From positions 1,116,001-1,180,000 of the forward strand of contig NW_026570225.1 in assembly GCF_019649055.1 (NCBI RefSeq): a DNA stretch of 64,000 bases, given 5' to 3'. The first letter of the stretch is position 1. Each line of letters starts with the position of its first letter. Of the stretch, positions 1,135-31,491 are shown one piece after another. The position numbers were made by a program, and so were the translations under genes. Under the pieces are notes generated by a model. It ran no database searches and was not told where the DNA came from. It saw only the letters and a list, made by a program, of their open reading frames with translations. This DNA comes from Paramacrobiotus metropolitanus. Its lineage: Eukaryota; Tardigrada; Eutardigrada; Parachela; Macrobiotidae.

Positions 1135-2369
1135 ATGTCAATACGGCGCGAAGATCTTCTGTTGCTAATCCACTTTCTTGTCAGTTTGATGGTCAGTTCG
1201 GCTATAATCCATGCGGCACCGTTATTCGAGGAGCAGTCATCCCAGGATTTCACCCTGCCTCCCGCAACCGATTGGACAAGCCCACCGGCATTTTTTACCT
1301 TTCCGCAGGCCGCCTTCACTGAATCTCCAGTTTTTGATCAAACTACGAATCAAGTATGTTACTGAGGTCTAACATAATTTTGCCTAATTAACTGCCCGTG
1401 TGTGTATTATGGCATGTTCATGCTCTTTTGTTTTGCTAGCAGCAGTTTCCTACTTTCTCCCAAGTGATATCGACAGAATCACCCGTTTTTGAACAACTGA
1501 CCAGCCAGGTATTTTACAAGTATACTTGCAGCAATCTTTACTTGCACCAACTAACCTCATAACCTCATAATTGCATAACCCTGCAATATGCACCGGCTTG
1601 GCTTTTGAATTTGTAAAGTCCGCCTATTTTAAATACTTTATACGTAAAAACTTGCAGTAATTACCTACCGGACAAAAAAGAGATTTTACAAAAGTACCTT
1701 GATACCAAAATTAATTCAATTTATTAATGACGCCGGTTAGAGTGTATTATGCAGCTGTGCCTTACTGCTAGGTCGACTATATATCATGTCACCTTTGATC
1801 ACTTAGAACACACGTTATACATAATGTACACCCACGTGTATTGTTCGAAAATTTTCATAAGATACAAAAATTCTCATAAGATTTTTAGACGACTGAAGCA
1901 TGTGATTTACGCATGCAATGAATTTGTGTAGAGCTGGACCAACATTCCCGAGCCAAACAGCTTACCTATCAGCCCGAATGCCGATGGTGCAGCACTCATC
2001 CACAACGCTACATCAGGGCCTGTAAACATTCCTCCCAGTCGGGAAGAGGAACTGCAGGCCATCAAAGACACGATGGTAACCGGTGTGACCGCCATCCGTG
2101 ACTCCCTGCTGCACTTAATCACCTTCGTCATGGGCGGCGCCAAAAGTCTGATCGAACAGCAAGTGGGCAAGGTGGCGGACGCCGTGCACAATACGCTCAA
2201 TCGCACCGCCGCCATCAAAGACAACATCCTCGCCGCCGGAAGCGGCATCGCACAGACGTTCGGTCACTCCATGGGACAGAGTAAAAATATCACACATGAT
2301 TTGTTTACTACCATTTTTCATGGTCAACCCATGCTGCCTGGCAATTACGCTTTGCACAATCGACATTAG
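1135..2369 (+). CDS. Small secreted helical protein, tandem family member A
   Basis: Exons 1135-1353, 1443-1508 and 1932-2369 join in phase 0 with GT..AG introns to give about 240 aa. Residues 1-28 are a signal peptide (basic start, hydrophobic LLLLIHFLVSLMV core, likely cleavage near HAAP). The mature part has a Pro/Ser/Thr-rich stretch, then about 85 residues of predicted amphipathic helix containing VTAIRDSLLHLITFVM and HNTLNRTAAIK. The same helical block occurs in the genes at 3714-4810 and 5970-7036, so this is the first of a tandem cluster. Exon 2 (22 codons) repeats the end of exon 1 (TESPVFDQ versus TESPVFEQ), so it is probably a duplicated exon. There are N-x-S/T sites in the helical part. 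A polyadenylation signal AATAAA lies at 2494. I do not recognise the family and assign no function beyond secretion. Small extra exons in the second intron cannot be excluded. Confidence 0.72.
1354..1931 (+). other. Introns of secreted gene A, with duplicated mini-exon
   Basis: The mini-exon at 1443-1508 (66 bp, phase 0 on both sides) sits between an 89-bp and a 423-bp intron. Its translation aligns with the last 21-22 residues of exon 1 (shared core TESPVF, then D/E-Q, then T-N/S-Q). Symmetric phase means it can be added or skipped without disturbing the frame. Confidence 0.6.
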
Positions 2370-3713
2370 TGCTTATCGATGTTAATAATTATAATCACAA
2401 GATTATAGTTATGGGAAGTCAGCTCGCTAAGAGCAACCATCCTAATCCCGACAGTAAATTTTCCTTCTTTCAGTGTTTTATTTACACTAGCGAAATAAAA
2501 AATGCATTGTCGTTGGGATGGAGACTTTATATTACATAGATACAGTTTTTTTAATTTTCTATAACGATACATTTAAATAATACAAGCTGCAAATACTTAT
2601 AATATATAAGTGTTATTCCAGTTTATATATAACAATCCATTTCGATATAACTACTGACTACTGTATTTATTATTAGTAACGGGATGCTTTTTATCGCGCT
2701 GACAAAAGTCCGACAGTTTATCCCCGTTCTTGAAATCTGTAACCTCAAACTTGAACTTTGTGTTTAGTTTTTGAAGGTTTTTACTTTTGAAAAGTGAGTC
2801 CGCGTATGATTTTCTGTTATTGGGCTGGCTATTGTCCAATAGACAAAATTGGGATTTTGAAAGTGATCAGGTACCACATTTTTCGGGGTACTGGGTCTCA
2901 GCTCTCAAGATACTAAATAATATTTAGTTTCGTCATTAAAATACGCTATTCCGTACCTACGAGAGCTTTGCAATTTCCGAGAAATAGCATGGGAATAATA
3001 CAATGATTACAATCATTGTATAACACGAATCATATGTATATCTATGTAAATGTCCGAACCCATGCACTCAAATCATAATTACTGTAAATAGCACCAAACC
3101 TTAGGTTATTAGAGTTGGCCCTATATATCTACACTAATTGTCTTGGATTTGCAGTACTGTAGCTGATGTGTAGCTGATGTTCTACACAATCTTAGCATTT
3201 GGCGGACGTTTCCAAATTGTTATTATCGGTAAACGACGAGTGACAAAACCATTCAAAATATGCAGATTAAGCGTCTGGTAGTAACAGTAATACTCGTAAT
3301 TATATTTGTTTATGCAAGTTGTTACACACGCAACCTCTCGTTGGCAGACTGCTGGAAGTGTCTGCCGGAAGACAAACTATCGTTATTTTATAGTAACGTG
3401 CAACCAGTAGGTTAGTCGAAAAACACGCAATTTGCCACAAAACTCCGGTCAAGTTTCAACAGACCATGTTGACATAAAAGCATCTGTCGGCCTATTAAAG
3501 GAAAACATTAAAATGTTACGCGGTATATTACGAGTTACGTTGCTGCTTATATCCTGAGGTGCTGCATCTCAATCAAAGAAGCTTCGTACATCTGCTCTGT
3601 GACTAGATGGAGACGTCGCTGTTGATATTAGAAAACAAATCGGTTATCGTATAACGCATCTTTTATTACGCTTCTCTGCTTTTTCAGTTGGACTTTTACC
3701 GATATTTTTCAAA
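2370..3713. other. Spacer between secreted genes A and B
   Basis: AT-rich spacer. It contains the small secreted-peptide ORF listed separately at 3260-3415 and a short inverted repeat near 2999-3022 (TACAATGATT / AATCATTGTA). An exact TACTCGTA octamer lies at 3291, inside that small ORF. Nothing else is supported. Confidence 0.5.
3260..3415 (+). CDS. Possible 51-aa secreted peptide
   Basis: A short open frame encodes a basic start (MQIKR), a strong hydrophobic core (LVVTVILVIIFVYASC) typical of a signal peptide, and a roughly 30-residue mature peptide with a CxxC motif (ADCWKCLPEDK). It lies about 300 bp upstream of gene B in a cluster of secreted proteins. The frame ends at a TAG in GTAGGTTAG. 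GTAGGT is also a usable donor in phase 0, and gene B's signal exon uses the same hexamer, so this could instead be the first exon of a longer or decayed family member. It has no recognised homologue, and an ORF of this size could be chance, so confidence is limited. Confidence 0.33.
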   Translation: MQIKRLVVTVILVIIFVYASCYTRNLSLADCWKCLPEDKLSLFYSNVQPVG

Positions 3714-4810
3714 ATGCTCTTCTTTCAAACCCATCCGGGAAACATCCTTGTGTTCGTGGCAGTGGCTGTTATTGTGGGATATTCAAGTGTGGTGGCGGCT
3801 CCATCTGCTTTTTCCGGTGGCTCGTCAGTGGCTGCCACTGATGACACCCCGTACGACTCAGATGTAGGTTCAAAAAACACTTGTACGTTCCTACAACTTA
3901 AATTTATTTAAGAATTAAGAACAGGTTTTGACTGTCATAAAATAAATGAGAAGTATCTGGAATAACTCATCTGCATCCAAATTTTCGAACCAAACAATCT
4001 GCCATATATTAAACCAATAATTAATTTGAATTCCTTTAATGAAGCAGTATGAAGCCGGTTTCTATTGTTAATGCTTTTTAAGGGTACGAGTATGTTTGAT
4101 AACGGAGTATGAAGATTAATTGGAATTTTCTTTTGCTTCCGCCAGAGGTTAGTAAACAACTTACCTAATTGTTTAAAAAAGTATTTTTGCAAAGGTGCAT
4201 GTATTGTTATTAGTATTAATACACATTGATTCATACATTTCGATTAGTTAATATTATTTTTATTTATCCAAAGATTAGTTCTATGGTTTACTGCAAGATT
4301 GTGATTAAGTTATGCGCTTGTTGAAATACATGCGAAAGGTCATCGTTGATTGTCTTCCTTTGACGAACAATAATCTAAGACGTCCGGTTTGTTTTACAGC
4401 CGGACAACTACACTTCTTCGTTTGAAGATTCCGATCATCACACACCGGAAGTTCCTGATCTGCGCATTCCGTCAGTGAAAATTCGCGACAAGGATGTGCA
4501 CGATGTACAAAGTGTCTTAATCGGCGGTGTAACAACCGTTCAGAATTCACTGATCAATTTCCTTTCGGGTATCTTTGACAGCGTGAAGAAGGTGATTGAA
4601 ACTAGCTCCGGAAAAGTGGTCAACATTCTTAATGACTCCGTCAATCGTACAAATGCGGTCAATGCGGATTATCTGGCGACCGGAAAAGAAATTGTGGACA
4701 CGTTCAGCCAGTCCTTCAAGAACAGCACAAAACTGACGAAGAATTTAGTAGGGGCTTTTTCTTCGCGTGGTGGTGGAGGAAAAGCGCTGGATGACGTTGA
4801 TTTCGATTGA
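3714..4810 (+). CDS. Small secreted helical protein, tandem family member B
   Basis: Exons 3714-3863 and 4400-4810 join in phase 0 to give about 186 aa. Exon 1 carries the signal peptide (hydrophobic ILVFVAVAVIVGYSSVV, likely cleavage near VAAP). Exon 2 encodes an acidic linker, then the helical block shared with genes A and C (VTTVQNSLINFLSGIF, then NDSVNRTNAVN about 30 residues later), and ends in a Gly-rich tail plus an acidic C-terminus (DDVDFD). The acceptor gttttacag is almost identical to the one used by gene C, and the intron sits in the same place and phase, which supports origin by gene duplication. There are no cysteines in the mature part and several N-x-S/T sites. Likely extracellular; function unknown. 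Confidence 0.78.
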
Positions 4811-5969
4811 ACAGTTCGAAACGCACTCCAGTACGGTTTAATGAAAACCGGGTATCGGAAAATCTAACTAAATCTTTCCGTATTGCATTGTCCAAAAAGA
4901 TGTTTTGCTCTAAAATAATTATGAACTGGATTTTTGGATATTAGTGATGACAATAAGCTCTTCTCTTTCCGAGCCGTGGCATTCACATGCATGTACGTAT
5001 ACGGTTTTATAGTATTATGACTATTGTTATTGGTTGCGGTACGCGTGAAAACATCTATTACAAACTGTCTCGTACGGTTATTACAACCGACCGCATTAAA
5101 AGTTTTTCAGTCCGAATAATATTTACGAACAACAAGCATGGGCGCATTTTAAACCGATTTCGTTATATTATAATAACGGGGCAACAGTTTCCGAGCCTCA
5201 ACTATATTGCTATTTAAAACAAAATTGATACTGACGACATAACAAAGCTGAATGGACGTACAACGTACAGAAATAAGCCTGTTTATTTATTGTGATAATG
5301 CTAAACAAGTAGGATAGTGTAATTAATGAGATATTCGTGCGATGCATGCTTTACGCTTGCGAAGTGATAAGTGGGGATTGTTGACCTGTAAGCCGAGATA
5401 ATTACGTGGAACATTTGATCATGAGAAGCACCAACAAACTTAAAGCAAATCAAAGTGGGAATGTTAATTTCCTGACAATATTATCTTCTGTCTTGGCCGT
5501 TAATGAATATCTCGCTTCTGATGAGCCAAATTTTAAGCCAAAAAACACTAAGTTAATTAACAAAAAGATCAGCTGCAACGCCGAATGCAGCTGCAGAATC
5601 ACGGCATATAACTGAAATCGGGGTAAATGAAATCTTAACCTGCGGTAATATGTTTGCACACGATGATCGGTTGCATTGCCTTTACATTGTACAACTATGC
5701 TGCACCTATATAATATTTGCATTTCATTCATTATATCACTAGCAGGTTCAATAAAAAAAATAGCCAGACATTGAGTATTAATTCTGCAGTTAAAAGAGTG
5801 CATTACTGCGCAATTTATGCCTTAGGCGTCTTGTTTTTCTCATAATGTACCCATTGCACCGCACTCGCGCAAGCAAATTCTGCGACAGTTTCAGTTCGTC
5901 TATAAGTTTTACAGATACGTACACAGAATCTGTCTACAAACATTTTTGATAGACTGCCTTGATTTTAGG
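4811..5969. other. Spacer between secreted genes B and C
   Basis: AT-rich DNA with no supported gene. The short open frames present lack signal peptides, splice support or composition shifts. Confidence 0.5.
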
Positions 5970-7036
5970 ATGAATTCCTTTGTACTCACCGCAGCACTGT
6001 TAATATTATGGGGATGTGCCAGTGTCTCTGCCGCTCCGAAACCGAAACCAGGAGCTGGTAAACCGGCGAAAGCACGGTCCGCCTACGCGCGGAGTGAATC
6101 AAATGCCACCGAGGTAAGCATTTAGACTAATAAGCATACTTTCCCAGAAAAAACGAATTCAGTTAAGTGCTTCTCTAATCCACGTCCATATTATTTCGTC
6201 TATGCGTTGAAAAATTCGTAATACTTTGTTTATGACAGATCGAAATTAAATAATGCGTTTATGACCTTTACCAGAACCGATACTTCCTGCACTAGTATAG
6301 TCAAACAAGTTACAATGCGCAACGTAGTAACTGCATATATGCTGCAGTATTAACAGCTTATTAGAGACAAGGACACAAATACCGTATACATTTTCCACAA
6401 ACAGAAAGGAACGATAAAACGGTTATAACGGTATTCTAATTATATATGCGGTTGCACCGATTTGCCGCCACCATTTTTTGTTGTGTTCGTATCGCGTCCG
6501 GTTCAGTCCAAGCTTTTTGTCTGCAAGCACAAGCATTCAGCAGCAAGGAAGCCACTTCGGCATATTGGCGCCGTTGCTGTTTGTTGGAACAGATTTTAAA
6601 TTTTTTTGTTTTACAGCCTTCTGGATCCGACAAACATGACCCAGCTGCAAAACCAGATGACAATGCGATGAATATCCCGCCGATTCCCCCATTTCCCGCC
6701 GACAACGACGTCCAGACCTTCCAGGACAGCGCAATCAGCAGTGTATCGTCCATACAAGACTCTCTGGTGTCCTTTATCGGCGAAATTTTCTCCATTGTCA
6801 AGAGCGTCTTCCAGACCACCACGGTCAAAGGTGCAGGTTTGATTCAGGAATCCATTAACCAGACCAATGCAGTTAACAGCAGAATTAATGCACTGACAAA
6901 GGACCTCACTGACGCTGGGAATAAAGCGGTCGCTAAAGCGTCCAAATTTGGGGAGGATATTGGCAGCGCTGTTTCTGGTGAGAAGCACGAAAAGCCGGCC
7001 GGCAAGCCAGAAAAGCCGAAAGGGAAAAAACCCTGA
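5970..7036 (+). CDS. Small secreted helical protein, tandem family member C
   Basis: Exons 5970-6113 and 6617-7036 join in phase 0 to give about 187 aa. The signal peptide is at residues 1-21 (VLTAALLILWGCASVSA, cleavage before APKPKP). The mature start is Pro/Lys-rich. The helical block (VSSIQDSLVSFIGEIF, then QESINQTNAVN) aligns without large gaps to genes A and B, and the C-terminus is a Lys/Pro-rich tail (KPAGKPEKPKGKKP). Gene B has a Gly-rich tail and gene A neither, so the tails diverge while the central helix is kept. The donor is a strong GTAAGC and the acceptor gttttacag follows a pyrimidine run. A polyadenylation signal lies at 7210. Family not recognised; it is predicted to be secreted. 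Confidence 0.78.
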
Positions 7037-10000: not shown

Positions 10001-11061
10001 ATTAGACAAATATCGTATTTTATCGCTGATTGGCAAGATCAGGAACTGTACTATACAACAGCTGGTGGTCTTCCCTTGCGGCTACACTGCACCGCACTGC
10101 ACCGACCCCACACTCAGCACATCTATCTCCATAAGATCCCGTCCCCGACCCAGGCAGCAGCTGTCGGCGATGATCCCGCTCATCCACCGCCAACGATCCC
10201 CCACTCGTGCGCCTCCCACTTTTCCGGAGTTACAGCTTCTGGCTATAAGCCATTGACTTCGTATTTACATACACACATTACAAGCCATACAATTAAAATC
10301 TGTCATTCTGACAGTGCACTCTATGGGAACATTTCCACGGCTATGGCCCCATGAATTTCCCATATAAGTAGCAGTACGCGCGGTATATGCACGCTCCGCC
10401 GGTCGCTACTGTTTTATCCGTATACTGGTCCGATTTATATGCACGGTAACTGACAGTCAGATATCTTCGACACATAAATAACATGCATGAACACTTTCCT
10501 ACATATCACTTAAAGAAATGAGACATTTCCCTTTTATCCCCCACAACACACATCCCATTCAATCTGGCCAATATTGATTCAACTGCCTTGCCACTGTATA
10601 CTGTGGCCGGGGACGATCGGCATTGTTTGTACACGGGAAAAGCGAGACCGGCACTTTTTGCCCAGCACACCCTGACGCGCGCGTTTGGATACAGTGTTCT
10701 TTGTCATTGCGGTCAAATTTCAAATGAGTGAGAGTTATACGCCAGCGCCGTGGCCTGCAGACCGGGAAGAACGCTCTGATACCGCGTGGATAAATCATTG
10801 TCCTCATCGGTGGATATACACAGTACGTCTGTTTACTTCGAAAACATCCCGTCCCCGTGCAATTCAGTATTCATGTCAGAGAGATTTTATGCCCATACCA
10901 AAACACACACAACCGGCATTTTAATGGGATTATCTCCTGTAGGCAATCCGCTGCAGCGCTCCTCACTCGTCCATGCACGCCGGTCAGCATGGGCGTGGCC
11001 TAAGAATGTCCATTGTCAATTGCCGGTTTCCGGTTCCGTGCGGCTGTTGCGCTCATGACGG
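7037..11061. other. Long spacer upstream of the UNC-93-like gene
   Basis: No gene could be supported in about 4 kb. A GC-richer patch at about 8720-8800 follows a plausible acceptor (catgttccag) and reads open for some 25 codons, so it might be an isolated exon. A C-rich stretch at 10060-10260 and GC-richer DNA at 10560-11060 may be 5' untranslated or promoter sequence of the next gene. The 34-bp palindrome at 9489-9522 lies here, followed by short imperfect repeats of gaagaaatatatacact to about 9560. Confidence 0.4.
9489..9522. repeat. Perfect 34-bp palindrome centred on CACGTG
   Basis: The left arm TATTTCTTCATCTACAC is the exact reverse complement of the right arm, with no spacer. The centre TACACGTGTA contains an E-box (CACGTG). 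Part of the right arm is repeated directly downstream (GAAGAAATATA), so the region may have grown by replication slippage. Confidence 0.9.
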
Positions 11062-14000
11062 ATGAGAAGAATGCCGGCCGCGATGTTGGCTCGCTCCCAT
11101 TCGGACGGTCATCTAGCCGGCAAATCATTAATCAAGCATCATTACCCACCACTAACCGATAACGATCCCCCAGCGGCACATTCCGCCGGCATTCAGCCGA
11201 CGACGACCTGCCGATTACACAATCCCCATGGAGCGCATTATGACGGCTCATACTGGAGTCCGGCAATCAGCGAAATCACTCCGCTCACCCGTCCCCTCGG
11301 ACCCACCGTCATTCGCACCATGTACGCCGGCCATGTTGCCGTTATGACATTAATCAATCTCAGTATTGTCACGACACAAACTGTCTTCGCCTTGTTTGCT
11401 AACCGCGAACTCGCCGTCCAGTATGCTAATCTCACTGTTTTCTATTCGGCCGCGTTTTTATCGTCAGTATTCTTGTACCCGCTGGTCTGCTACTGGATCA
11501 AACCGGACCGTGTTCCCATTGTCACCGGGGCAACGGCCGTCGGGTACGCCGTCAGTTTGACCTTTTTCCCGGGGGTGTACGTTACGATCCCTGTGAACGC
11601 CGTGTGCGGCGGCATGCTGGGCGTGCTGAGCGTATGGCAGGGGGAAAAGGTCATCGGTCTCGCTGTCCAGTACGCCCATGTGAAGGTCAACGCTACCAGC
11701 GACGCCAAATCCACGGCGGGAGAATGGTATGTGTGGTCGCAAGTGTGGCTACAGACTGGGATAATGCTGGCCGCCATAACCTGCAGTGTGGCGCGGATGT
11801 GGGTGATTCCCTCGGAATTCAAGAGAGTAATTGTCCATCCGCTTGATATGCAGCATCACTGTGGTTCGCACGTCTGCCAGCACGATGTCGCCGCGCGGCT
11901 GCACCACCCGATGATGATGGATGAGGCCGGTGATTATCTGAACATGATTCTCTTCCTGTTGGCTGGCTGCGTAGCGGGCCTAGGCAGCCTGGCCGCTGGA
12001 CTGATGGTGTGCTTCGCTAGAGCGCAAAACAACATTAACCACAACCGGAAGCAGCGCGGGCGCAGTCGCGCGGTGGTGTCACATGAGCAGCAGCCGGCCG
12101 AGGAGGAGTTGCTCTCCGGTGGTTCCGCGTCGGACAGCAGTGAGTGCACGTCGCTGCAACAGCACTACTCCCCGCCGATCATTAGTCAGTTACGTGGCCT
12201 TGTTGACTTGCTGTGCTACAATCATAAATTACAGACGCTCCTCCCGGTGTGTTTTCTCATCGGACTGCACTGGGCCTTTATGCTGACAAGCTTTTCACAG
12301 GTAATTAATAATCTTTCGATGGGCATGGGCAATGGATGGTGTGCTCCCGCTGCAGTGTGATGGGTATACAGTACATGTATGTGTACACAGTACGGGGTGA
12401 TTAATGGGCAGCGGGGGGATGACTGCTACTTCGTACTGTTCATTTCCGGTGCTCAGAATGGAAGTGGGCCGGGGGCCGTGAAATATTGCCGGTGCCGACA
12501 TGATACAATTTTTCATTGCAGTAATAAGTTCGATACTTTTCGACAAATCGATACATTTTGCGCTTTAGCAAGTCTAATTTTTGCAAAAATATACTCGTAC
12601 TTTTATTTGCCTGGATACGCTGGAAGCTTCGCACATTGGAACAATAACAATGTTTCCGGAGTAGTAATTGCTCAATTAATATTATTTTGGGACGAGAGCT
12701 ATCCATATATGTCGCTGTTCAAGTAGTAATTACTTCAAGGCTTTCTTGAATTTATGTAGTTTATTTTCGGGTGCGGCGTGCAGAAAGCGGAAAAGCGGTG
12801 ATTTTTAAAATGGCCACGTTTCGCCCTAAATGGCATTACAGCCGATTACATTTGATCAGCTGATGCATTAAAAATTGCTGCCGTATATGTAATCGAAGCA
12901 ATTTTATAACCGTTTCCGGTCTCCATTAACTGCCACCACAATCAATCTGACATTTCCCGCGTCCCATAATGTTGCAGTATACATACTGTACGAGTAACAT
13001 ACATGACGTTCCCTCTACAATCACACAGTGCAACATTTATGATATTTTCAAAAGCAGCAGTGGTGCAACTAATGTCATAACGTACGCGACAGCCGCTTAC
13101 TGCCGCAGCAGCTGGTACAAATTATAGCAAGCACGCAGAATTAGGCATAGCAAAACTTTATTTTCAACAGTATTCCTTTTGGTTTCTGCTAAACAAAATA
13201 CAAACAATGAAATAATCCCACAAAATATTGATTTGAAATATCAGCACAGCAGATATTGAAATCAAGTCGTCTAGTCGATCTAAGTCAACTAACTTACTTT
13301 TAACAGCAGTTGTTTTCTGCCTTGTTCAGCTACTACGTAGTTGCAATAATTAGCTTTTTGAGTAACAAGGCTCTTCATAATTACATGTACAGCTAATAAT
13401 TACGTGGCCGGTGGCATCACTAGAATACGGTGGTAGAATAGCAAGCACCGCGCCGGCTGGAATTAAAGGCAGTTCCCTAATAAGATGGTGCTTTGCAGGA
13501 CTTTATTGAATGTGCATTAACAGCAGATTATGTGGGCTGGTCATTGGCAGTGTACGCCGGAAGTTGGGCATTATCCCTATATGTAACTTATCAAATGAGT
13601 CGTCAGATTAAGCGAGTGCACATTTTGATCTGGATCACGTTCTTTCAAGCTGGGATCGAAATTGTATTGTCTACTTGGTTGCCCGGAAATCATGATGTTC
13701 CTGTCTTCTTCGTTATGTCTGGTGTCTTGGGATTGACTCAAGGGGCGTACTCGGCCCTCATAACCGGTAATTCGATAACTCTAACGAACTTTTTAGCTTT
13801 TTCTTAGCCTGATCCTATCACAGTTTCTTACTAACAGAAAAAAACCTATGCAAGCACTCATTCGAAACTATATACCGAATGTATTTCAACAGTTATTATT
13901 AACAATCATTATAATTACTGTAGTTATAATTGTATAATTTACAGTTATTATCTGACAATAATTGTTGCCTATGTACAAATATGCTTGGAGACTTTGGTGA

Positions 14001-15606: not shown

Positions 15607-16609
15607 TAGTACAGTTTTTCTTTTAAAAAGCCCATTTTATTAACTTTGATTTCTCATTGATCACGAAAATTTAAAATTAATGAACTTTTTGTCTTATCGT
15701 TTTGCATATTCCATAAAGCGCAACTGCATAATGGAGTAAGAGCTTGAATAAGATCTCGTTAAAATCGGCCACCTTATAGAACTTGAATGTGTTATGATAT
15801 GGTGCATCTGCCTAAATACTTACCCACACAACAAAAATTGTTAAACTTGGGCAATTACATACATTCATAAACGAGAACAGTAAATGAAAAAACATTACAC
15901 TACAAAAACGAATTTCCTTGACAAGGACAGTTTTTGAAATTACCAGCGTACTAGCAAGTAACAACGGCCATCAAGCAGTAAGCATACCTTTTATTTCTTG
16001 GAAACGAGCATTTTTGGGTTGGAAGCCATACCATAGCTCAGATCATATTACCAATTTTTCCGGTGACAGCAAAACTTTCCACTTGAGAATCTCAATTAAA
16101 TTTCATGATCGGCCAATATAATCCAACATTGATGCGCAGCCGAGCATATATTTTGTTTAGTAGCTCTGTTTGGAAAGTTGACACTTACAACAGCTAGTTT
16201 TTTCGGTGGACGAAAACACATTCATGTGCAGTGCTTTTTGCCGGAGTAAAACGTAGTTTTACAACTTAGATTTTGCAATTATACGGCACTGTATAAAGCA
16301 ATTAATTAGAAATTGCTGCTTTTTGACAATGAATTTGCGCAATTTACCTGCTTTGCGTTTGCGTTCAGCACATCAACCACTGCATGCAAGGTACTATGCA
16401 AGTACCTTGCATATACTAGTATTTTATATATTATATTTTTCTGATGCTTACAGTTTTTGTTGTTTTCATACTGGTTTAGTATGATTGTTTCTCAATTGGC
16501 AACGTGTCATTAAAGCTCCAGTGTGCATGTTGGAATTTTGAAAAAACTTGGAGCCGAGAAAGATCACAGCAGTTTTAAAATTTAGCAACCAAAGCTTTGC
16601 TAATAACAA
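15607..16609. other. Spacer between transposon and GPCR gene
   Basis: AT-rich spacer, probably with the promoter of the downstream GPCR. It has a 12-bp inverted repeat ATGCAAGGTACT / AGTACCTTGCAT (16384-16395 and 16401-16412, 5-bp loop). No other feature is supported. Confidence 0.5.
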
Positions 16610-18110
16610 ATGTGGAACAATAATACTTCAGAAATCGAGGAGTACATCACAAATGCGACATCCAGCCAAAAAGGTGTGAACACGGATCGCGTCATCGGGC
16701 TAATGTTCTCGTTCACGGCAATATCCTGCCTCGCCACATTGCTATTTAATTCCCTAATCATCTTAGTGTTCCTCCGCTATCGCCACGTCCGCACGGCTTT
16801 TAATATGTATGTGGCCAACCTGTGTATTTTGGAGTTTTCACTGGCTATTACGTCGATGCCGGGAAATTTAATTAGAGAATATTACGGCTACTGGCCGTGG
16901 AATGATTTCCTCTGTGGGGCGTTTTTATATTGTGACGTCATATTCAGTGCGGCGGTGCGCTACGGCCATGTCCTAATCGCGATAAATCGGTTGTGGGCAG
17001 TGACCTTCCCGGTAGCTTACAAGGAGCGACACACGAAAAAGTTGGCGGTAATTTTGATCGCCGGTTCATTTGCTTTCGTCAATATACTGAATTTACCGGT
17101 GATCATTCGGGGAAGAGTTTGGAAGGACCCGTACGACATCGAGTGCTTAGTTAATACAAGTGTACAGTATTATTCGGCACTTTTTGTGGAGATATTCAGT
17201 TTCACAATAACGGAGGTAATGGTGTTACTGCCTTGCCCATTTATTTTCTGGAAACTACACAAGAAGCGTTTGCGACCTAGCGAGAGCGGCGTTAACCTTA
17301 ATCCTTTAGGTACGATTTTGCATTAATCTGATGATTTATGTCATGTACTAATGTAGCTATTTCCTGGTAACGTGTTGTGAGATGCATATGTTATATGTAT
17401 AATGTAAACTATGATGTTTCTTATGGTCTGCACTGAGTTCGAAGCTTCCAGCAGTTCATAAAAGTAACAAAACCTGCGGATTTGGTCAATAATCACGAAT
17501 AAGATGAGAATGTATATAGCGCTTTTGTTCAGTAATAACTGCTCCAACAATGCAAATATTACATGTTGTATTATTATCATTTTTAAGGCTCGTTTGTAAT
17601 TTTTAAGAGTGCCACAGCAGTGAACATACGTCATCTGCTAGTACTACGTCATTTATGAACGTGGTCCGCTTTCCAGATTTTGTTTGTGCTACAAATTCCT
17701 TTCCGGATCCTCCAGTTGCTGCTTGCCGGAAGCGTCGCTCTGTCAGCATTTCCCTGGAGCTGGACCACGAAATTCGCGTTTACAGAATCACGGCGGAAAG
17801 CAAAAGACGCAAACTGTCAAGTATGATCCGCGCCAAGCATGCGAGAACCAGTTCCCACAATCGCATCTTGCTGTACCTTGTGTTGACCGTCATTGTCTTC
17901 TGGACACCTAATCATGTCTACTGGATCATGGTGTATACGACGAAGTACTGGAACGCAGTATTCTTTGCGGTGCAGCAGTTCTGCATTTTGACCAATGCCT
18001 GGGTTAATCCGTTGCTGTTTTATGTTGGTTTGGGCAAACTGCGCGCTGCCATTAACGATCTCGTTAAAGCAGCATTTTACAAATGTCTCTGCTGCAGCAA
18101 AGGCGATTAA
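16610..18110 (+). CDS. Class A (rhodopsin-like) GPCR, orphan
   Basis: Exons 16610-17309 and 17677-18110 join in phase 1 to give about 377 aa. The N-terminus is short with N-glycosylation sites (NNT, NTS, NAT). TM1-TM7 can all be located: TM1 about 33-55, TM2 66-88, Cys102 before TM3 with its likely disulphide partner Cys179, TM4 146-166, TM5 190-214, then a long third intracellular loop at the splice junction, TM6 with FWTP in place of CWxP, and TM7 ending NPLLFY (NPxxY-like). The DRY motif at the end of TM3 is replaced by N126-R127-L128 within INRLWAVTFPVAY. The other GPCR in this window has the same motif. The ligand is unknown. AATAAA is at 18142, followed by a 23-bp tandem repeat in the 3' region. 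TM spacing and phase make the two-exon model firm. Confidence 0.85.
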
Positions 18111-20240
18111 CGAAAGACGTAGTAATATGACACTTATCGAGAATAAAACAAAAAAGTTGACAGAAAGGCATCGGTTGAATTGACAGAAAGGCATCCGTTG
18201 AAAATAAACGAAATTTGTTTTAATTTATCGTATGCAGGAGTGTTTTAGCGACTAGTGTAGGCCAGAAGCACTGAAAAATTTCAGCAGACGTTGCCAGAAT
18301 TAAGGCACCCACAAATTTTTATATATTTTCACAATAATCTGCACGCCGAAAATGCTGATAAAATCTGTAAATTATCCATTTTAAAACTAAAAACTGAAAA
18401 ATGTTAAAAACTCGCATTTGTAATAAGGTTAAAATTGACCTCAGCATTTTTAACCTTTTTAACCTTGGTGTACAAGTACAGTAGCATTCTGTGCTCCCCA
18501 ACAGTACTAGTAAGAAGCGGATTTTCGCGATGCACAAACTGAATTTTAAAGTGTCATAGGATACAAATTTGATCACTTCACCGATCTAACAGCACACCTT
18601 TACAAAAATCAGAGACAAGGCTCCAAATACCAATCTTTTCCGTTTTTAGAGGAGAGAATTGGCAATCCAAACGACATGCAGAATGATGTGCGTTTGTTGA
18701 TGACTTCTATTTAATTTTACGCTATGTGAGAGGAGTGCAACGAAAAAGAAAAAGTTGCGCTTTTTGGAACAAGTAAGTAAAAAAATCTTGGCTGTCTATG
18801 GATGCTGGATCGCGATGGTCAAAATAAATAGCAGCGTAACAGTCACCTGTAATTTAATTCGTCAGTATTACGACACTCGATGTAGACAGAGCAAAGGTCA
18901 TCCCTAAGTTCAAGAAGAAAATAGCACCGCGGGTGCTGTAATCTTTCGAGCCCATTCATTTTAGTGCCGGACAATGAAGAACTGCATTATAACAAGCATC
19001 AAATGCCAAACGGTTCATGAATGTGGCTGTTTGCAATGAAATATTTACCGAGCTCAGGAGATTCCCGGCAATCACATTACAGAACACCATCAATTTACGC
19101 CAATGAGGAAATGTGGATGGGAGGTGTTCTTCGGCAGTGTCAAAAGCAATGACCACAGCGCAACGTTCGAGCGCTTCGGTCGTGAGTGTGTCTGTAAAGT
19201 AAACTACACAGGAACTCGAACAATACGAGTACATTACATGTTATACAGTTCCTCGGAATCCGAGGACTTTTTTTTGGAGGCTGATGGATGCAGGGTGCAG
19301 AGCAATACATGACAATTTACCAGAGCGCTTTCCACTGGTAAGGAGCTGTATTGTGTATGAAGCGGACAGCTGTCCATTTTGACACCTTTTGTACTTCAGT
19401 ACCTATATTTTTTTAAATACATTTCACGTTATGGGACTTGGTAGGTGCGACGTTGGGAATATGAGGGTACGCTGACCCATAGCCATTTATGCATAAGTAT
19501 CGATCGTGAATACTTTCGTAAAGTGTTTGGTCATGCCATTGTTTTCTAACCATTTTGTACAGTAATCATAGTCCATAGGCACAATAATTTGGAGATTCGG
19601 TGCAGTACCTGTTGCTGCTTAACAATCGTTACCGGTCCATGTTACATACATCTATCGTCCAGTATTTGACTAGTAAGCTAGTATGACTCTGATTTGACTA
19701 TTAACCGTTTGAATATGAACGTTATAAATATTTCCCTGTGGCAAAATGAAGGTAAATATTGCATAAGTGCACTTATACAAACAGGAATAATTGTTATCAC
19801 CTCAATACATGGATCATAAAGTTAATGTACGACAATTCTATGCAAACGAGACCTAACGTTTTACTGCCTAGACACGCGGTTTGTGAGCAGCCGTCTAGTC
19901 GAGTGCGACGTCATCGCGTTGGAAAGGGAATGCAAAATAAACCGGACAAATATAAAGGAGCCAGGTAACTCACGGAATCCCTGGCAGTTAGGCCCTGGAA
20001 AACTGTTTAACTTATCCAACAAATGTTAGGTGTCCGGGTGTTACCCCGCGTCATTTCAAGCTATAAATTATACAGAAAGGATGTTATCACAACATAATCA
20101 TTTTGACTTTGACACAAAAAAGGCTCACATCAGGATATATAAAGACCCTGAATCTCCTCTCTCTTTGCACAGTCACCTCAGTCGTTCTTCCTTATTTATG
20201 AGCAGAAGCTACAGAAATTTCATTTGTCAATGAAACCACA
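18111..20240. other. Spacer with core promoter near its end
   Basis: It starts with a near-perfect tandem repeat of TTGACAGAAAGGCATC[G/C]GTTG (18157-18202). The rest is AT-rich. An open frame on the minus strand around 18956-19234 looks mildly protein-like but has no recognisable domain or splice partners. The last 110 bp hold the TATA promoter described separately. Confidence 0.45.
20136..20180 (+). promoter_or_regulatory. TATA-box core promoter of the secreted catalase-like gene
   Basis: TATATAAAG at 20136-20144 is followed 25-40 bp downstream by initiator-like sequences: GCACAGTC at about 20168 and CTCAGTC at about 20177-20183. The ATG at 20241 is 60-70 bp further on, giving a short leader. 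Spacing and motifs match the standard metazoan TATA/Inr layout. Confidence 0.6.
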
Positions 20241-21320
20241 ATGGTACCGCTGTATTTGGTTTTAAGCAAAGCCTTCTTCATATGCGGCTTTTCCATAGGA
20301 AGGGTTCCGTTCGTCTTCTCCGTGCAACTGGATCTCGACGCATATCAGCTCCCCGATAACGACTACCAGGATGACCTTTCCGTCCTTACCCGACATGTAG
20401 CGCCAACACTGCCACTCCCACGATTACTTTCCTTGTCGCCATTGTCCCGCGACTACGAATCTTTGCCGGCGTGGATTAAGCAAGAGATTCTCTGGAGAAA
20501 CATCGCAGCAAAACCTTATCAGTCTAACGCTCTACCAACTGAATGTCACAAACCTCCAGTGTCCGATCAGTTGTTTAATCAGAGTTTTGTAATCATGTCG
20601 TTCAAAATGAGCGGGGATGAATTCCCCATGGACCGACCTAAACTAACGCATACATATGGAAGCAGCGGAAAAGTGCTGCTACAGATATTTCCTAATTCCT
20701 CCTACACCGGAGTGTTCAAGGCGGGTGCGCTTATTCCTGGAATTATTCGATTTTCTTTGGGTCCTTGTGACATCAACAATCCCAGCTTCAAACCGTCCTT
20801 CGCAATGAAACTGCTCGTGGATGGAAAGCCATCGGAGAACATTTTTACTTTTAATATCCATGGTACCGATGGTCAGGGAGACGACCGCAACGTTTTCTCT
20901 CTGCCGTTCTCCACTTTCCGTCCGGCTTCGCTCGATCCCAACGTCACCAAAATTTTGACCGTCCAGCACGAAGCACTAAAGCTTTTGCCGGGAGGGGACT
21001 GCCACCGACCGCTGGATGAAAATCGATTGCCAGTGTACGACGCGGCAGCCGTCAGCACCGACACGAAAAAGGTAAAAGCGCCGACACTCCTCCGTTTCCT
21101 GCCTAATGCGGTTGTCGGATGGGACTCAAAGAGTAAATTGGATTACCGCGTTAACCTCTCCAAAGTCCGGCCGAATTCCTTGCTGTACACGGTGGCTGCC
21201 AGAAAAACTGAAGATGGGCGAGATCAGATTATCGGCAAATTGTGGTTGATGAGCCAGTTGGTCGCCTCAGAATACCAGGACAGGAAGCTGTTCTTTAAAC
21301 ATTCTCCTCGAAGCTGTTAA
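20241..21320 (+). CDS. Intronless secreted protein with catalase-like resemblance
   Basis: A single open frame of 359 aa. The N-terminus (residues 1-28) is hydrophobic and probably a signal peptide. The middle resembles the haem-binding core of catalase-related proteins: R132-x-x-L-T-H137-x-x-G, then GVFKAGALIPGIIRFSLG (158-174, like the family's G-x-F....P..VRFS), then FAMKLLVDG and NIFTFNIHG in the order expected for the RG-x-A-x-K-x and N-x-P-x-F segments. The C-terminus LWLMSQLVASEYQDRKLFFKH resembles the end of short bacterial catalase-like proteins. This is a pattern-level similarity, not a proven assignment; the proximal Tyr ligand is not identified. Most neighbours have introns and this gene has none, which fits retrocopy or horizontal origin. 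AATAAA is at 21491. It is a confident gene of uncertain function. Confidence 0.6.
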   Translation: MVPLYLVLSKAFFICGFSIGRVPFVFSVQLDLDAYQLPDNDYQDDLSVLTRHVAPTLPLPRLLSLSPLSRDYESLPAWIKQEILWRNIAAKPYQSNALPTECHKPPVSDQLFNQSFVIMSFKMSGDEFPMDRPKLTHTYGSSGKVLLQIFPNSSYTGVFKAGALIPGIIRFSLGPCDINNPSFKPSFAMKLLVDGKPSENIFTFNIHGTDGQGDDRNVFSLPFSTFRPASLDPNVTKILTVQHEALKLLPGGDCHRPLDENRLPVYDAAAVSTDTKKVKAPTLLRFLPNAVVGWDSKSKLDYRVNLSKVRPNSLLYTVAARKTEDGRDQIIGKLWLMSQLVASEYQDRKLFFKHSPRSC

Positions 21321-26000: not shown

Positions 26001-28649
26001 CCAACAGATTGGATTACGTTCCGATAATATGACTGGTGCCCGTTTGAGAAATTCAAAACCTCTTTCTCATCAGCGGTAGGACGCGCGGTAGAAAAAGACG
26101 GTCTTGTCAATATTTTCCATTTCGGACTGCCGCGGCCGGTTAATGTTATGTCACAAGCGTTGTCACTGCCGGTTAACGGTTGATTGCTATTAAAAATTTC
26201 CAACTACCGGCATTTGGAGTCTTAGATTAATTATTCCGTTTTGTAAATAAAATGCTTATCGCCCCCGTGATGCAACGTAGGGTGGAAAAATAATCTGCTG
26301 CAACGAGGCAGTCGGCGGCTCAAATGTGCTTGACAGTGGATGCGAATGGCATTTTAGCCGAATAACTCCAAGTGTGAAAATTGCATTGTTAATAAGCGAG
26401 TTATCAACGAGTTATTGGGCAAGGTCTCTTCTGCGCGTTGGGGGAGCAGTGCGCGGTGCAAGTGGAAAATTTGGCCGGCTCCCTAATAGTGTACTGATTG
26501 AGAGCGAGAGTGAGAGCTGTACAGCTATGAGCGGCTGGTGTTGAAGGGCAAAGATGCGGATCCCACGGCTAGATCGGATTTCCTTCTCAGCGTGAGCACG
26601 CCAGTCATTTTCCACTGCACCAGGCTGAAATTCGAGACTGATGGATGGGCTTCAGCTGCCTATGTCAACAAAAAGGCAAGAAGGGAGAAACACACGGCTG
26701 CGGTCATTTTCCATTTTGGATGGCAACCGACCGGCGCTTCCACTGCGCCAGAAGCAGCGAGCAGTCCTAACACTTGCCACTCCGCTTTAGACACGGGCAT
26801 CCTTATCTTTCCACTCTTCCAGACACTTGCACTAACGAAAGGAAAGTCTGTCTGAAGACTGTAAATGGACAGGAAGCCCATTAAAACTGCCGTCTTAACT
26901 CCCCTGCCATCTTGCTCTGCCTGTTCGCAACCCTTGAACGAACGATAACGAAGAGTCAGGCACGACACTGCGATAATTGATTACGATTAAATTGAACTGG
27001 AAACGCAAGCTGCGCGTTCTTAGTATTTCTTAACTATAGCGTGATATCCCAGGCCTGAAAATGAACCGAAGAAGTTGAAATTTAAAAATCGCATCGGTAA
27101 AATAATGAGAAGTCCGTGGTATTTTATTAATCAAGAAATTAAGAAGCCATGGTAATTAAGACAATTTTCTTCCGTTTTAAAAGGGCACTTTGTGAGATTC
27201 GAAATGTTTTGCGGGTGTGCTCAGCATGACTGCTGTTTCTCCTGTACTCTCATTTGGAAGGACAAATATGCGCAGAATTGGCGGAAACAAAGTAAACATA
27301 CGGAAGCACTTCGGTACACACTTACACACATCCCAGCAGCTTTAACTTATCCATTGTGGAATTGACAAGAATTTCGGCTGACTGCATCAGCGCTGCTGTT
27401 AGTGCTGTAGTAGGCATTATTATTGGTCTCTTACTCACATGATGAGTATACACCAGTTCATGAATGAGTAAAAGGCAATATTTGATTTTGATTGTTAGTA
27501 AACCAAGCTCTGACTGGTAATCTCTCAATACCATCCATTGACACTCAACCCTTAAAAGCCTCCTCGCATACTAACCCAATACAATAATTCTCAATGTTTA
27601 TCCGACGAATGATTCAGGCGCCAGTTGGCTATGATCATGCGGCCTCACCGCGCCGGCATCACTTGACAACTGACTTCCTGTCCATTTTCTCCTGTTTGGA
27701 TTAGCAACCGAGTCTAAATATGCTTTTAAGTGTCTTCCTTTTAGCAGGACACTATTAAGAAAAATTTGTCTAGCTTTTCTTAAAGATGGCGAATGTTAAC
27801 TAGCTCGCTAATATGCTCTTAGTTTTCAAGCGAAATCACAAAGCATTTTGTGACCTGGAGGGTGGCCAACCATCGCTGAAAAATGTGCCGTTTATCAACT
27901 GCTTTATCAAAATGACAGCTACCAGTACCAACTCAGGGAAAACTTATCGATTCCGACACATGTTCAGATTTAATCAGGGATATTAATATCCGATTACTGT
28001 GTCGATGGTACCGATGGTACAGAGAGTGCGCAGCTAAGTTTAGCCGTAACGACCAGATTGTCAATCTCCATTAACTCATCGTCCAACATTGGCCAATCGC
28101 GGCGACAAATAGGCGGGGCTACACAATGTCTACCATTTAAAATGATTAAAGGTCTTTAATACACTGCATAGTGGATACCCGTCATTTTGCGTCGCTTATA
28201 CAGTACCAAAGCTTGTACGTACCAGTCACGCCTCTTCCTGCACGTTCCCTTCAGTGAACCCAGTTGACTCTGAAATATCTCAATAACTGGCGATAATTTC
28301 CAATAGTGTCAGGTTTTAAGCTGCGGCCGTTTGTTCTCTGGGTGTGTACGCGGCCTGTGTATATGACAATATTTTATTACCGCACATTTTCGCGCTGGTG
28401 TCAGCTACAAATTAATCCAACACATGTTGTTTAAATCAGACACATGCACACACGGAGGAGAGAGAGGAGCAGTGATGGTATTTTAAAAGCGATCTAGCCT
28501 TTTGATCCCGAGCGATATTCAAATCGGTAAAACTAGCTCAGCTAGCGTTCAACGCAATCTCATATTCCGTCCTTTCCCGTACCGCGACGTGGCAGTTATC
28601 AAATTGCTTAATGCTGTAACGTGTTGCGTTGGGTTTCTCCGCTTCCTCC
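23031..28649. other. Gene-poor region upstream of SIX1/2, probable regulatory DNA
   Basis: I found no supportable gene in about 5.6 kb. GC-richer stretches at about 26280-26960 and 27600-27690 stand out from the AT-rich background and may be enhancers or untranslated exons. A homeodomain-type cluster (GATAATTGATTACGATTAAAT) lies near 26970-26990. An imperfect inverted repeat GTCTAC..CAAGTCT / AGACTTGTAGAC is at about 25571-25599. The promoter-like block at 28088-28119 is listed separately. Confidence 0.5.
28088..28119 (+). promoter_or_regulatory. Double CCAAT palindrome and GC box upstream of SIX1/2
   Basis: ATTGGCCAAT at 28088-28097 is a perfect palindrome of two overlapping CCAAT boxes. 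GGCGGGGC, a GC/Sp1-type box, follows at 28112-28119. They lie about 530-560 bp before the ATG of the SIX gene, a reasonable proximal-promoter position. NF-Y and Sp/KLF factors usually bind such sites; binding here is inferred. Confidence 0.4.
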
Positions 28650-31491
28650 ATGTCCTGCAGTGACCTGGGAATCGGGTTACCATCTGTACAGATGACCGCG
28701 ACCGACCTTATGCCCAGAATGGTTAGCGATCCCTACAACATGGTCGGGGTGCCGACTAACCGCATCAACATGAATCCGCCCTTCATGTTCACCAGCGAAC
28801 AAGTGGCATGCGTATGCGACGTGCTACAGAACTCGAACAATATTGGCCGCTTAGAATCTTTCCTCTGGTCCTTGCCGCCACATTGTCCGGAGATCCAGAA
28901 GAACGAAAGCGTACTGAAGGCCCGAGCAACAGTGTACTTCCACCGCAATGACTACAAAAGTCTGTACATGCTACTGGAGTCGCACCACTTTAGTCCGGAA
29001 TCTCATCCCAAATTACAGCAGTTGTGGATGCGCGCGCATTATAACGAAGCGGAGAAGTTGCGCGGCCGTCCACTGGGTGCCGTGGGGAAGTACCGTGTAC
29101 GACGCAAATTTCCGCTGCCCAGGACAATCTGGGATGGCGAGGAGACAAGTTACTGCTTTAAGGAAAAGAGCAGGAATGTGTTGCGCGAATGGTACACTTC
29201 GCAGCCATATCCATCGCCACGAGACAAGAGAGAATTAGCGGAAATTACCGGGTTGACCACAACCCAAGTGTCCAACTGGTTTAAAAATCGACGGCAACGG
29301 GATCGCGCCGCTAACGAAAAAGACGGCCGGTAAGTCAACAGTGTATGTATCTGCAGGTGCTACCGTAACACATTCTTGCGATCAGTCGAACGCAAAAATG
29401 ATAATTTGAGAATGATGACATACAGCAAGAGGACAATTATAAAATTAGTGTCGCGTTATCACATACTTTTAAAGTATACAAGACACATAAAGGTGTAACA
29501 ACCAAATATTATGGAATATTGTTCATAACACATGATTATCACTACAGGCAACTTGATCTAGTATTGTTTGTGATGAAATTTTAGTCGGGTGTCTTAGCTT
29601 GCACAAGTTTTGCAGCTGGTAGCAGTTTTCTTAACATTAAACGATTGGATTTCGTCAAAACTGACAGCTTGCTCCATAAAAAGTCGAAATCGATTGATAT
29701 CAAAAGCTAGAGAGACATTATTGCGTTCTGTTTCTGAAAATTCTCCGATCACTTTAAACAGCAGTTTGCACATGGACTATACCGTGGCACGTTGTATGGC
29801 AAACCGCATGTTAATTATGATGGGTCGGGATTTGATGCTGTTGCTCCCTTGGAAATTTTTTTTTCTTGCGAAATCGTGCGAGAAGACCATTTAGTCCATA
29901 AATGAAATATTAAGCACGCACTGTAAAGCAGTGATCGCAGAATATGCTAGTCTCTGTGGCTATACGTCTGTCGTTCGTGGTGTGACCTTTCATATCATTT
30001 GGTAAGTGATCTGTATTTGTACTGTATACTTTCGGCATAGCCATAAATATGCAATCATATGAAATAATAAAGTCGTTTGCATATGCGTTATTACATTTAC
30101 CTACTGTTATTCTTTCCAGTTTTTCTTAAATCTCTTTATTAATCCTTATTACTGGCATCACCGGTACACCATAATTAGGCCCAACTTTAACTTTAATCCG
30201 ATATGATTTGTTTTTTCTTTTTGGCTTAACTAAGTTTGTTGAATAATATGTATTATGCAAATATCTTTAGCATTAAGAATTCTTGTATCGTACTATTTTC
30301 AAAATGGTCGACGATATGCAAATCTTTCTGAAACGAGCAAGGTGTAGACGTTGAGATCTTGTCCTCGCATTACAAATCTTATCGCCCGTTTCTTTCTCTC
30401 TTAGTACGCTGCATGCATTCAAAACACTTGATTTTTTGTCGTTGTTTGTTTATTTTCACCGCTCAAACAATAGGCGAGTTACTTTAGCCTAATTCCGTCC
30501 GAGCGCGTCATTGTTATGCTTTCTATTCTTTGTGAACTTCCTTTGCCCACAAGATGCAACTTGTACGAACGGCACAAACGAACCTACCACAGTCCGACTA
30601 ACATACACAGCTGCACTTTAACGTTTTTTGCGCAAATTAAACCAACAAACGTCAATCGGCAAATTAAACTAACATGCATTTTAGATGTAAAGTAATGTAC
30701 AATGCAATGGGTAATGAATTTCAAACAACAGAGGCAACACAGCTACATAATTATCTACGTAATAAAATAACGTAGCAAAAGTCACTCTAAAGTCTGACCG
30801 CACTTATACATACACCCGCAAGCCATTTAATAGTGTTTAATATACATATATCACTAACAGTTGTAAATAATAAGGTGTCAGTCTTTCAGCAGTAGGAGTT
30901 GTAATCGCAAAGGCTGAACTACTGTATACATAGTTGATTTTTATATTAGCACAAGAAAATTTCAAGTAGCGCCAGAAACTGCAGTTATATTAATTGTGTT
31001 GTAATCGCTTAAAGGCCAAACTACTGTACGTAGACTTTAGAGTAAAAGCGTGGCGCCTGAACGAAAAAATAGAAAAATTAATCTATGCCGTATGTTTATC
31101 GAAGACGTACTGTAAAAATGTCGAAGAGATGTGCATGACAATTATGTCAAAATAAACTGGTTTTTATGAAATATTTGATTCTTGCAGGTCATCCCCGAAT
31201 TCAAATTCAGCATCGAATGATCCGGCCAATTTGAACGACGGTGACGATTCCTCGCACGATGGCGATAGTGGGCCGTTAACGGGATCGATCGGCTCTATGG
31301 GAAGCGTATCGGGAGCACTGTGCATGGAGCCGGTGGACAGCAAGCGCTCTGTCATTAGTAGTGTCAATATGAATGGCACATTCAACCCGTTGGCGGATGA
31401 TTTTCGATTACGGGATAACAGTAACAGTACTGTTATTCAAATGGCCAAAATGTCATCAGTTAATCATAATCAGTATTTTAAAACGGAGTAA
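28650..31491 (+). CDS. SIX1/2 (so): SIX1/2 homeodomain transcription factor (sine oculis orthologue)
   Basis: Exons 28650-29329 and 31188-31491 join in phase 2 to give about 327 aa. The SIX domain spans residues 46-157 ([51 protein letters not shown]). The homeodomain follows (158-217) with the SIX1/2 tetrapeptide ETSY in [15 protein letters not shown] and recognition helix [18 protein letters not shown] separates the SIX1/2 group from SIX3/6 and SIX4/5. The intron falls just after the homeodomain. The C-terminal exon is Ser/Asn/Gly-rich, as usual. These proteins act with Eyes absent and Dachshund in eye, nervous-system and muscle development. The ATG at 28650 is the first in frame. The 1.86-kb intron and gene-poor flanks suggest complex regulation. 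Confidence 0.95.
29330..31187 (+). other. SIX1/2 intron
   Basis: A 1.86-kb phase-2 intron with strong donor GTAAGT and acceptor gattcttgcag. AT-rich, with no nested gene or repeat family recognised. It could hold enhancers. Confidence 0.7.

Follow-up and report, generated by a model that had tools for sequence, protein, structure and literature searches.

What do three adjacent tardigrade genes with a shared layout encode, and does any recognised family account for them? The genes, here called g1, g2, and g3, span positions 1135-7036 (+) of a 64,000-nucleotide stretch of the Paramacrobiotus metropolitanus genome (RefSeq assembly GCF_019649055.1, contig NW_026570225.1, positions 1,116,001 to 1,180,000); we refer to this whole stretch as the window. 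A first-pass annotation made by a model had described them as a tandem cluster of an unrecognised secreted family, each gene consisting of a signal-peptide exon, a phase-0 intron, and an exon with a conserved helical block. We rebuilt the three genes from the raw sequence, and the coordinates, the common strand, and the common layout all proved right: every intron is GT..AG, the reading frames are intact, and all four introns are in phase 0 (Table 1). The products of g1, g2, and g3 are 241, 186, and 187 residues long. All three have the signal exon and the phase-0 intron, but the two-exon layout does not hold for g1, which has three exons, the additional one being 69 bases long. By eye, this exon duplicates the last part of its predecessor (TESPVFDQTTNQ in exon 1, TESPVFEQLTSQ in exon 2): positions 1300-1353 and 1440-1508 have TESPVF[DE]Q-x-T-[NS]-Q in common, and a phase-0 donor directly follows each. 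We infer the exon joins from the splice sites, the frame, and the occurrence of the same layout in all seven family members described below.

The kinship of the three genes is beyond chance, as the first pass had implied, and it extends outside the window. We searched the whole assembly (169.8 Mb, 533 contigs). With g2 exon 2 as the query, this 170-Mb search returned g3 (E 2.3e-11) and g1 (E 6.7e-10), together with two genes on contig C70, C70a (E 5.2e-17) and C70b (E 1.2e-5). Queries with g1, g3, C70a, and C70b led to the same five genes, although some single links were weak (g3 to C70a, E 0.24; g3 to C70b, E 0.05; C70a to g3, E 0.26). Another gene, C5b (contig C5, 2.308 Mb), matched more weakly (E 0.017 from g2, E 2.5 from g1), and C13 was reached through C5b (E 0.0024). 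When the spliced C5b protein was compared by phmmer with the fetched open reading frames (ORFs), it matched C13 (2.6e-9) and g1 (3.2e-7), and C13 matched g1 at 2.7e-7; these E-values apply to a small database and are not genome-wide. Because of the phmmer links, and because in both genes a phase-0 intron comes directly after the signal exon, we took C5b and C13 as members. C5b has a further phase-1 intron within its block (by eye).

Overall, the family comprises seven or more genes, distributed over four places (g1 to g3, C70a and C70b, C5b, and C13), a count that is a lower bound given our single-sequence queries and the scoring of the best candidates. A profile built from the seven was run over excised stretches totalling 58 kb, L022, and the window, and it detected no further members near the known ones above the inclusion threshold. 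Five of the 11 matches to the g2 exon 2 query (L007, L008, L009, L010, and C99:435504; E 0.8-8) were set aside as weak; two of these, L007 and L010, lie by eye within reverse-transcriptase-like ORFs. The weak genome matches C35:175290 (E 1.4) and C152 (E 6.8) were not counted as members either.

All seven members have the signal exon followed by the phase-0 intron (splice sites of the C70 genes, C5b, and C13 were read by eye). We called signal peptides by hydropathy: within the N-terminal 35 residues, the most hydrophobic run of 12 averages 2.36-3.32 on the Kyte-Doolittle scale across the seven proteins, and 19-residue windows starting past residue 35 reach a maximum of 1.32. In the alignment, A-P stands near the likely mature start in five of the seven (by eye), and each precursor contains 0-2 cysteines. 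The tails have diverged as the first pass had stated (Lys/Pro in g3, Gly in g2, neither in g1), and those of C5b and g3 are basic. Over the units that they have in common, the proteins are 13-43% identical. In a tree of the seven proteins, g1 groups with C5b and C13 (support 92/88) and C5b groups with C13 (98/96); the side that holds g2, g3, C70a, and C70b is poorly resolved. Given this topology, the window trio probably represents old branches of the family and not three recent tandem copies, so the label of a tandem cluster falls short of the extent of the family and is slightly off the mark.

The defining feature of the family is an 11-residue repeat, of which the helical block consists and which the first pass overlooked. 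The repeat stretch is 65-109 residues long and nearly unbroken. Counted from the first anchor, there are eight units in g1, g2, g3, and C70a, ten in C5b, and six in C13; C70b has eight units with one residue missing. Two anchors, picked by eye, lie 58 residues apart in g1, g2, g3, and C70a, 57 in C70b, 80 in C5b, and 36 in C13, therefore the length variants have exactly two 11-mers more or fewer (22 residues). Part of C5b is a clear tandem run (GVSNAVHNVKE GVVGAVNAVEE GVANAVRPVVD). Positions 1, 2, 5, and 9 of the unit are hydrophobic, and the family anchors are GVxxI and [FW]xQS, with variants in g1 (FGHSM), g2 (GVTTV), g3 (SVSSI, GNKAV), and C70b (GMDVF, FDQAV). The motif x-S-[IV]-x-[DN]-SL, proposed earlier for the block, is too strict, its serine being present in g3 only (TAIRDSL, TTVQNSL, and SSIQDSL in g1 to g3); the accompanying motif [ST]-[LVI]-N-x-T-[NA]-A-[VI] is matched by each of the three genes (by eye).

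The Fourier peak of hydrophobicity falls at 98.6-100.4 degrees per residue across the seven blocks, or at 98.8-101.0 with a second set of block limits. Phase coherence over the four quarters of the block is 0.80-0.99 at 99 degrees and 0.08-0.63 at the heptad angle of 102.9 degrees; a coiled coil, whose period fits the blocks poorly, was rejected. None of 110 chunks of non-family window ORFs, a set consisting mostly of sequences that are not real proteins and not including ordinary helical proteins, reaches the weakest family power (maximum 6.5 versus 9.9). The pooled BLOSUM62 autocorrelation over lags 2-35 peaks at lag 11 (z 7.1). Five LEA_4-like ORFs from the same genome, run through the same code as a positive control, give 98.2-99.4 degrees. 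For the family as a whole, the block agrees with the 3-11 kind of amphipathic helix (tandem 11-mers without breaks, approximately 3.67 residues per turn), with C70b one residue short and the lag-11 signal weak in C70a, C70b, and C13.

The seven blocks have a mean moment of 0.33-0.43, a hydrophobic fraction of 0.38-0.46, an aromatic fraction of 0.03-0.14, a charged fraction of 0.15-0.22, and a net charge of -2 to +1. Lipid-surface helices in Table 1 of PMC5889406 have moments of 0.257-0.69, hydrophobic fractions of 0.32-0.72, and charged fractions of 0.05-0.49; in the order moment/hydrophobic/aromatic/charged, the values in that source are 0.257/0.35/0.002/0.15 for Plin4, 0.30/0.47/0.02/0.24 for alpha-synuclein, and 0.39/0.40/0.065/0.35 for apoA-I. 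The moment, hydrophobic content, and low charge of the family fall approximately within the range of these published helices (perilipin, synuclein, apolipoprotein), the comparison of moments being approximate because ours are means over 33-residue windows at 98.18 degrees and the published values are from Heliquest.

Six of the seven blocks contain N-x-S/T sequons (ten in total, none in C13). All ten are oriented towards the polar face, at 116-179 degrees (155 on average) to the hydrophobic centre, compared to a mean of 120 for the other N/Q/D/E/K/R residues (n = 183). If shifts of 22 residues and one residue are allowed, one sequon site is shared by g1, g2, g3, and C5b and another by g1, C70a, C70b, and C5b. 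This placement would fit a protein that travels the secretory pathway and bears its glycan on the side away from lipid, although by itself it proves nothing.

Within the libraries searched, the family is unrecognised, as the first pass had claimed. A profile search gave no Pfam family at cut-off for g1 to g3 (whole proteins) or for exons of the other four members (the second exon of C13, C70a, and C70b, and the second and third of C5b). One match of g1, to DUF5304, scored 20.6 bits against a cut-off of 26.8 (exon E 6.2e-4, whole protein E 0.0016); because this is below cut-off and the domain was unlisted for the other six, we read it as a match of composition. Perilipin, apolipoprotein, apolipophorin III, and synuclein were absent from the Pfam results at E limits of 1 and 10, a null result that leaves room for distant homology, given that HMMER filters drop most weak matches. 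There was no LEA_4 (PF02987) row for the proteins and exons scanned, the profile's seven genome matches being at other loci, and these proteins and exons had no Pfam match to lipocalin (fatty-acid-binding barrel). The ASAARIS motif of CAHS is absent from all seven proteins (by eye). We searched the PDB with two exons and found no convincing relative: matches to g2 exon 2 (a TAL effector, E 0.003 over 22 residues; IpaD, E 0.26, and weaker) and to the last C5b exon (a phage neck protein, E 0.03; a tape-measure protein, E 0.15; others weaker) were rejected as short or weak. In a prokaryote genome collection, a profile of the three window exons gave 91 pattern hits, none of which was confirmed. 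Among the papers listed in our literature searches, titles and abstract openings, without supplementary tables, describe no such family, which is apparently undescribed.

We consider it moderately probable that these are secreted proteins, unfolded in water, that fold as a long helix on lipid surfaces and coat or stabilise lipid outside cells or in the secretory pathway. Each protein would consist of a cleaved signal peptide, a linker (Pro-rich in most), the 11-mer stretch, and a variable tail. In water, we infer, the repeat would be largely unfolded, and contact with a lipid-water interface or another apolar surface would turn it into one long, slightly unwound helix with approximately 3.64 residues per turn. 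This helix would lie flat, with positions 1, 2, 5, and 9 facing down and a near-neutral polar face carrying N-glycosylation motifs facing up; tails and linkers would set the place or the partners. Lying flat on lipid, the proteins would therefore coat and stabilise its surface, the candidates being lipid particles, the lipid layer of the cuticle or eggshell, and outer cell membranes during drying.

Several observations weigh against this reading. The pooled angle of 99.0-99.2 degrees lies between 11/3 (98.2) and the 100 degrees of an ordinary helix and is therefore not enough by itself to establish the 3-11 form, and other helical lags are also raised (lag 25, z 6.4; lag 18, z 5.5; lag 7, z 5.3). 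Lag 11 is the best lag in only three of the seven proteins (g1, g3, and C5b); it is weak in C70a (z 0.2) and C70b (z 0.7), and in C13 it (z 1.9) is exceeded by lag 7 (z 4.1) and lag 22 (z 3.5). C70b, which has lost one residue, has an angle of 100.4-101.0 degrees, and there are prolines within the blocks of C70a and C70b (two each) and C5b (one). The number of sequons is not above that in shuffles (10 versus 7.2, P 0.16), and for lack of an excess we rejected their count as a sign of glycosylation. Structure prediction, which the first pass had recommended, was run with AlphaFold2 on input from the three window exons. It gave two long helices for both g2 (30-70 and 73-123) and g1 (37-88 and 92-130) at low confidence (predicted local distance difference test, pLDDT, 50.0 and 48.5), which leaves room for a folded bundle; at this pLDDT the models do not decide between a long helix and a hairpin.

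Such a bundle, circulating in body fluid like apolipophorin III or small carriers and opening on lipid or carrying a ligand, would break the array into 2-5 helices. The break near the middle of the AlphaFold2 models and the prolines in C70a, C70b, and C5b are in its favour, but we regard it as unlikely: a single phase runs through the whole block, the 22-residue length changes keep register modulo 11, which helices joined by loops would not need, and the models have low confidence. It is possible, if still doubtful, that the proteins are extracellular drying protectants, secreted counterparts of LEA or CAHS that shield membranes or proteins in the cuticle, in the egg, or in the body cavity during anhydrobiosis. 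This is compatible with a helix that coats lipid, and the probabilities of the two overlap. The helix period equals that of the LEA_4-like ORFs of the same genome, two of which have a signal-peptide-like start (by eye), and according to PMC10808001 a tardigrade group-3 LEA protein binds membranes by a disorder-to-helix change and homologues in the secretory pathway are predicted. Against it, the family has about half the charged fraction of the LEA-like ORFs (0.15-0.22 versus 0.31-0.47) and about double their content of Gly, Ser, Thr, Asn, and Gln (0.36-0.43 versus 0.16-0.26).

Three other explanations appear less probable still. A matrix protein of the cuticle or eggshell that forms fibres through coiled coils would be consistent with the signal peptide, the Pro-, Gly-, and Lys-rich flanks, and the strong divergence (13-43% identity); we find it improbable given the poor fit of the 102.9-degree period, although C13 alone has lag 7 as its best tested lag, and the few cysteines. 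Reproductive or seminal-fluid proteins, diverging fast under sexual selection, are suggested by the position of C5b, which lies inside the 1.96-2.37 Mb stretch of scaffold 5 around a male-biased DMRT pair (PMC11191345). Our DM-domain search gave five matches over cut-off among 16 candidates scored, two of them at 2.135 and 2.163 Mb of C5, which we take to be scaffold 5. Five DMRT genes are also reported for the published genome, with two on scaffold 5 in the drawn 1.96-2.37 Mb stretch, and H. exemplaris lacks the DMRT region together with what surrounds it (PMC11191345). This explanation is very unlikely in our view, since C5b is unnamed in that paper's passages, females too express genes that lie within or near the male-biased bins (PMC11191345), and the other six members are located elsewhere. 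We give least weight to membrane-attacking antimicrobial helical peptides released from precursors, which seem highly improbable: a signal peptide, amphipathicity, and the basic tails of C5b and g3 would suit them, but the block is not cationic, and it is conserved as a whole and not as a short peptide.

Perilipins, which are not known to have a signal peptide, and apolipoproteins, which are secreted, are among the nearest points of comparison for the family. The family resembles the perilipins, above all Plin4 with its 11-mer/33-mer 3-11 helix, in its 11-residue repeats, low charge, and similar moment and hydrophobic fraction; it differs in that perilipins coat intracellular lipid droplets, and it has no Pfam match to them. 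A C-terminal four-helix bundle is predicted for perilipins, and alpha-synuclein and apoA-I have 11-mer helices that fold on lipid (both from PMC5889406). The alpha-synuclein repeat (approximately 90 residues) is similar in length to the family blocks. Both proteins differ from the family in charge (0.24 and 0.35, respectively, versus 0.15-0.22) and share no sequence match with it, and the apoA-I helix is broken by seven prolines. Group-3 LEA proteins (PF02987, e.g., HeLEA1) share the 11-mer period; they differ in that the LEA-like ORFs of the same genome have about twice the charge and in that no family member matches LEA_4. The five LEA-like ORFs, which hold six of the seven LEA_4 profile matches in the assembly (all below cut-off), have a charged fraction of 0.31-0.47 and a moment of 0.23-0.33, lower than in the family; the period is shared with the family and the chemistry is not.

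Among tardigrade stress proteins, SAHS are secreted barrels like fatty-acid-binding proteins, CAHS are cytosolic and carry ASAARIS, and MAHS have a mitochondrial signal and an 18-mer motif, as described in passages of PMC7640644. The family shares with SAHS a signal peptide (called by hydropathy) and differs from them in having helical periodicity and no lipocalin match; it also lacks the CAHS motif. The lipocalin profile had three matches in the genome, the best of which (L029) looks by eye like an ordinary fatty-acid-binding protein. Two LEA_4-like ORFs, L037 (C4:3137 kb) and L038 (C3:2711 kb), combine a signal-peptide-like start (by eye), the 11-mer period, and high charge; their products are probable secreted LEA-like proteins.

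To our knowledge, the means by which cell surfaces and lipids outside cells withstand drying are an open question. A possible desiccation role for the family is attractive, by analogy, because LEA-like proteins of the same genome share its period and a tardigrade LEA protein folds from disorder to helix on membranes. We suggest only tentatively, as a rather doubtful extension, that a tardigrade lineage evolved, apart from LEA, CAHS, and SAHS, a further helix-forming family: secreted low-charge perilipin-like coats for lipid surfaces, which would guard outer membranes or lipids outside cells on drying, with their length tuned by the gain or loss of pairs of 11-mers. If the lipid-surface reading is right, the low-charge 11-mer helix, best known from intracellular lipid droplets, would have arisen independently outside cells. 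As it stands, a small secreted family whose period and chemistry are like those of lipid-droplet-coating helices, and which has no convincing relative in the libraries searched, offers seven targets for study.

Table 1. Positions of the exons of g1 to g3 and of other features in the window.
Feature	Positions	Strand	Description
g1 exon 1	1135..1353	+	Signal peptide and Pro/Phe-rich linker; end CAA|GTATGT, phase 0; hydrophobic stretch 2.72
g1 exon 2	1440..1508	+	23 codons, flanked on either side by a phase-0 intron; duplicate of the last part of exon 1; skippable in frame
g1 exon 3	1932..2369	+	Linker, eight 11-residue units, short tail, stop
Possible extra signal-peptide exon	3260..3406	+	49 codons, phase-0 donor GTAGGT, between g1 and g2
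g2 exon 1	3714..3863	+	Signal peptide; end GAT|GTAGGT, phase 0
g2 exon 2	4400..4810	+	Acidic linker, eight 11-residue units, Gly-rich tail, stop
g3 exon 1	5970..6113	+	Signal peptide and Lys/Pro linker; end GAG|GTAAGC, phase 0
g3 exon 2	6617..7036	+	Pro-rich linker, eight 11-residue units, Lys/Pro tail, stop
ORF	11059..12357	+	433 residues; no Pfam match at E 0.01
Rhodopsin-family receptor ORF	16607..17323	+	7tm_1 E 9.1e-24
ORF	20202..21317	+	372 residues; no Pfam match at E 0.01
SIX-type homeobox gene exon	28620..29330	+	SIX1_SD E 8.2e-47, Homeodomain E 1.7e-13
SKIP/SNW domain	36464..36928	+	
OATP-type transporter pieces	48992..50306	+	
Rhodopsin-family receptor ORF	53812..54972	-	7tm_1 E 3.5e-25
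Strawberry notch-type helicase pieces	57267..61579	-	

Splicing the possible extra signal-peptide exon between g1 and g2 to g2 exon 2 would keep the frame; it may serve as an alternative first exon or belong to a different gene. The repeat GATGGGTTTT, which is reported at scaffold ends of H. dujardini in a passage of PMC5531438, had no matches in the assembly when searched as three tandem copies. The G+C content of the window is 40.8%, and that of the published genome is given as 43.5% in PMC8277472.

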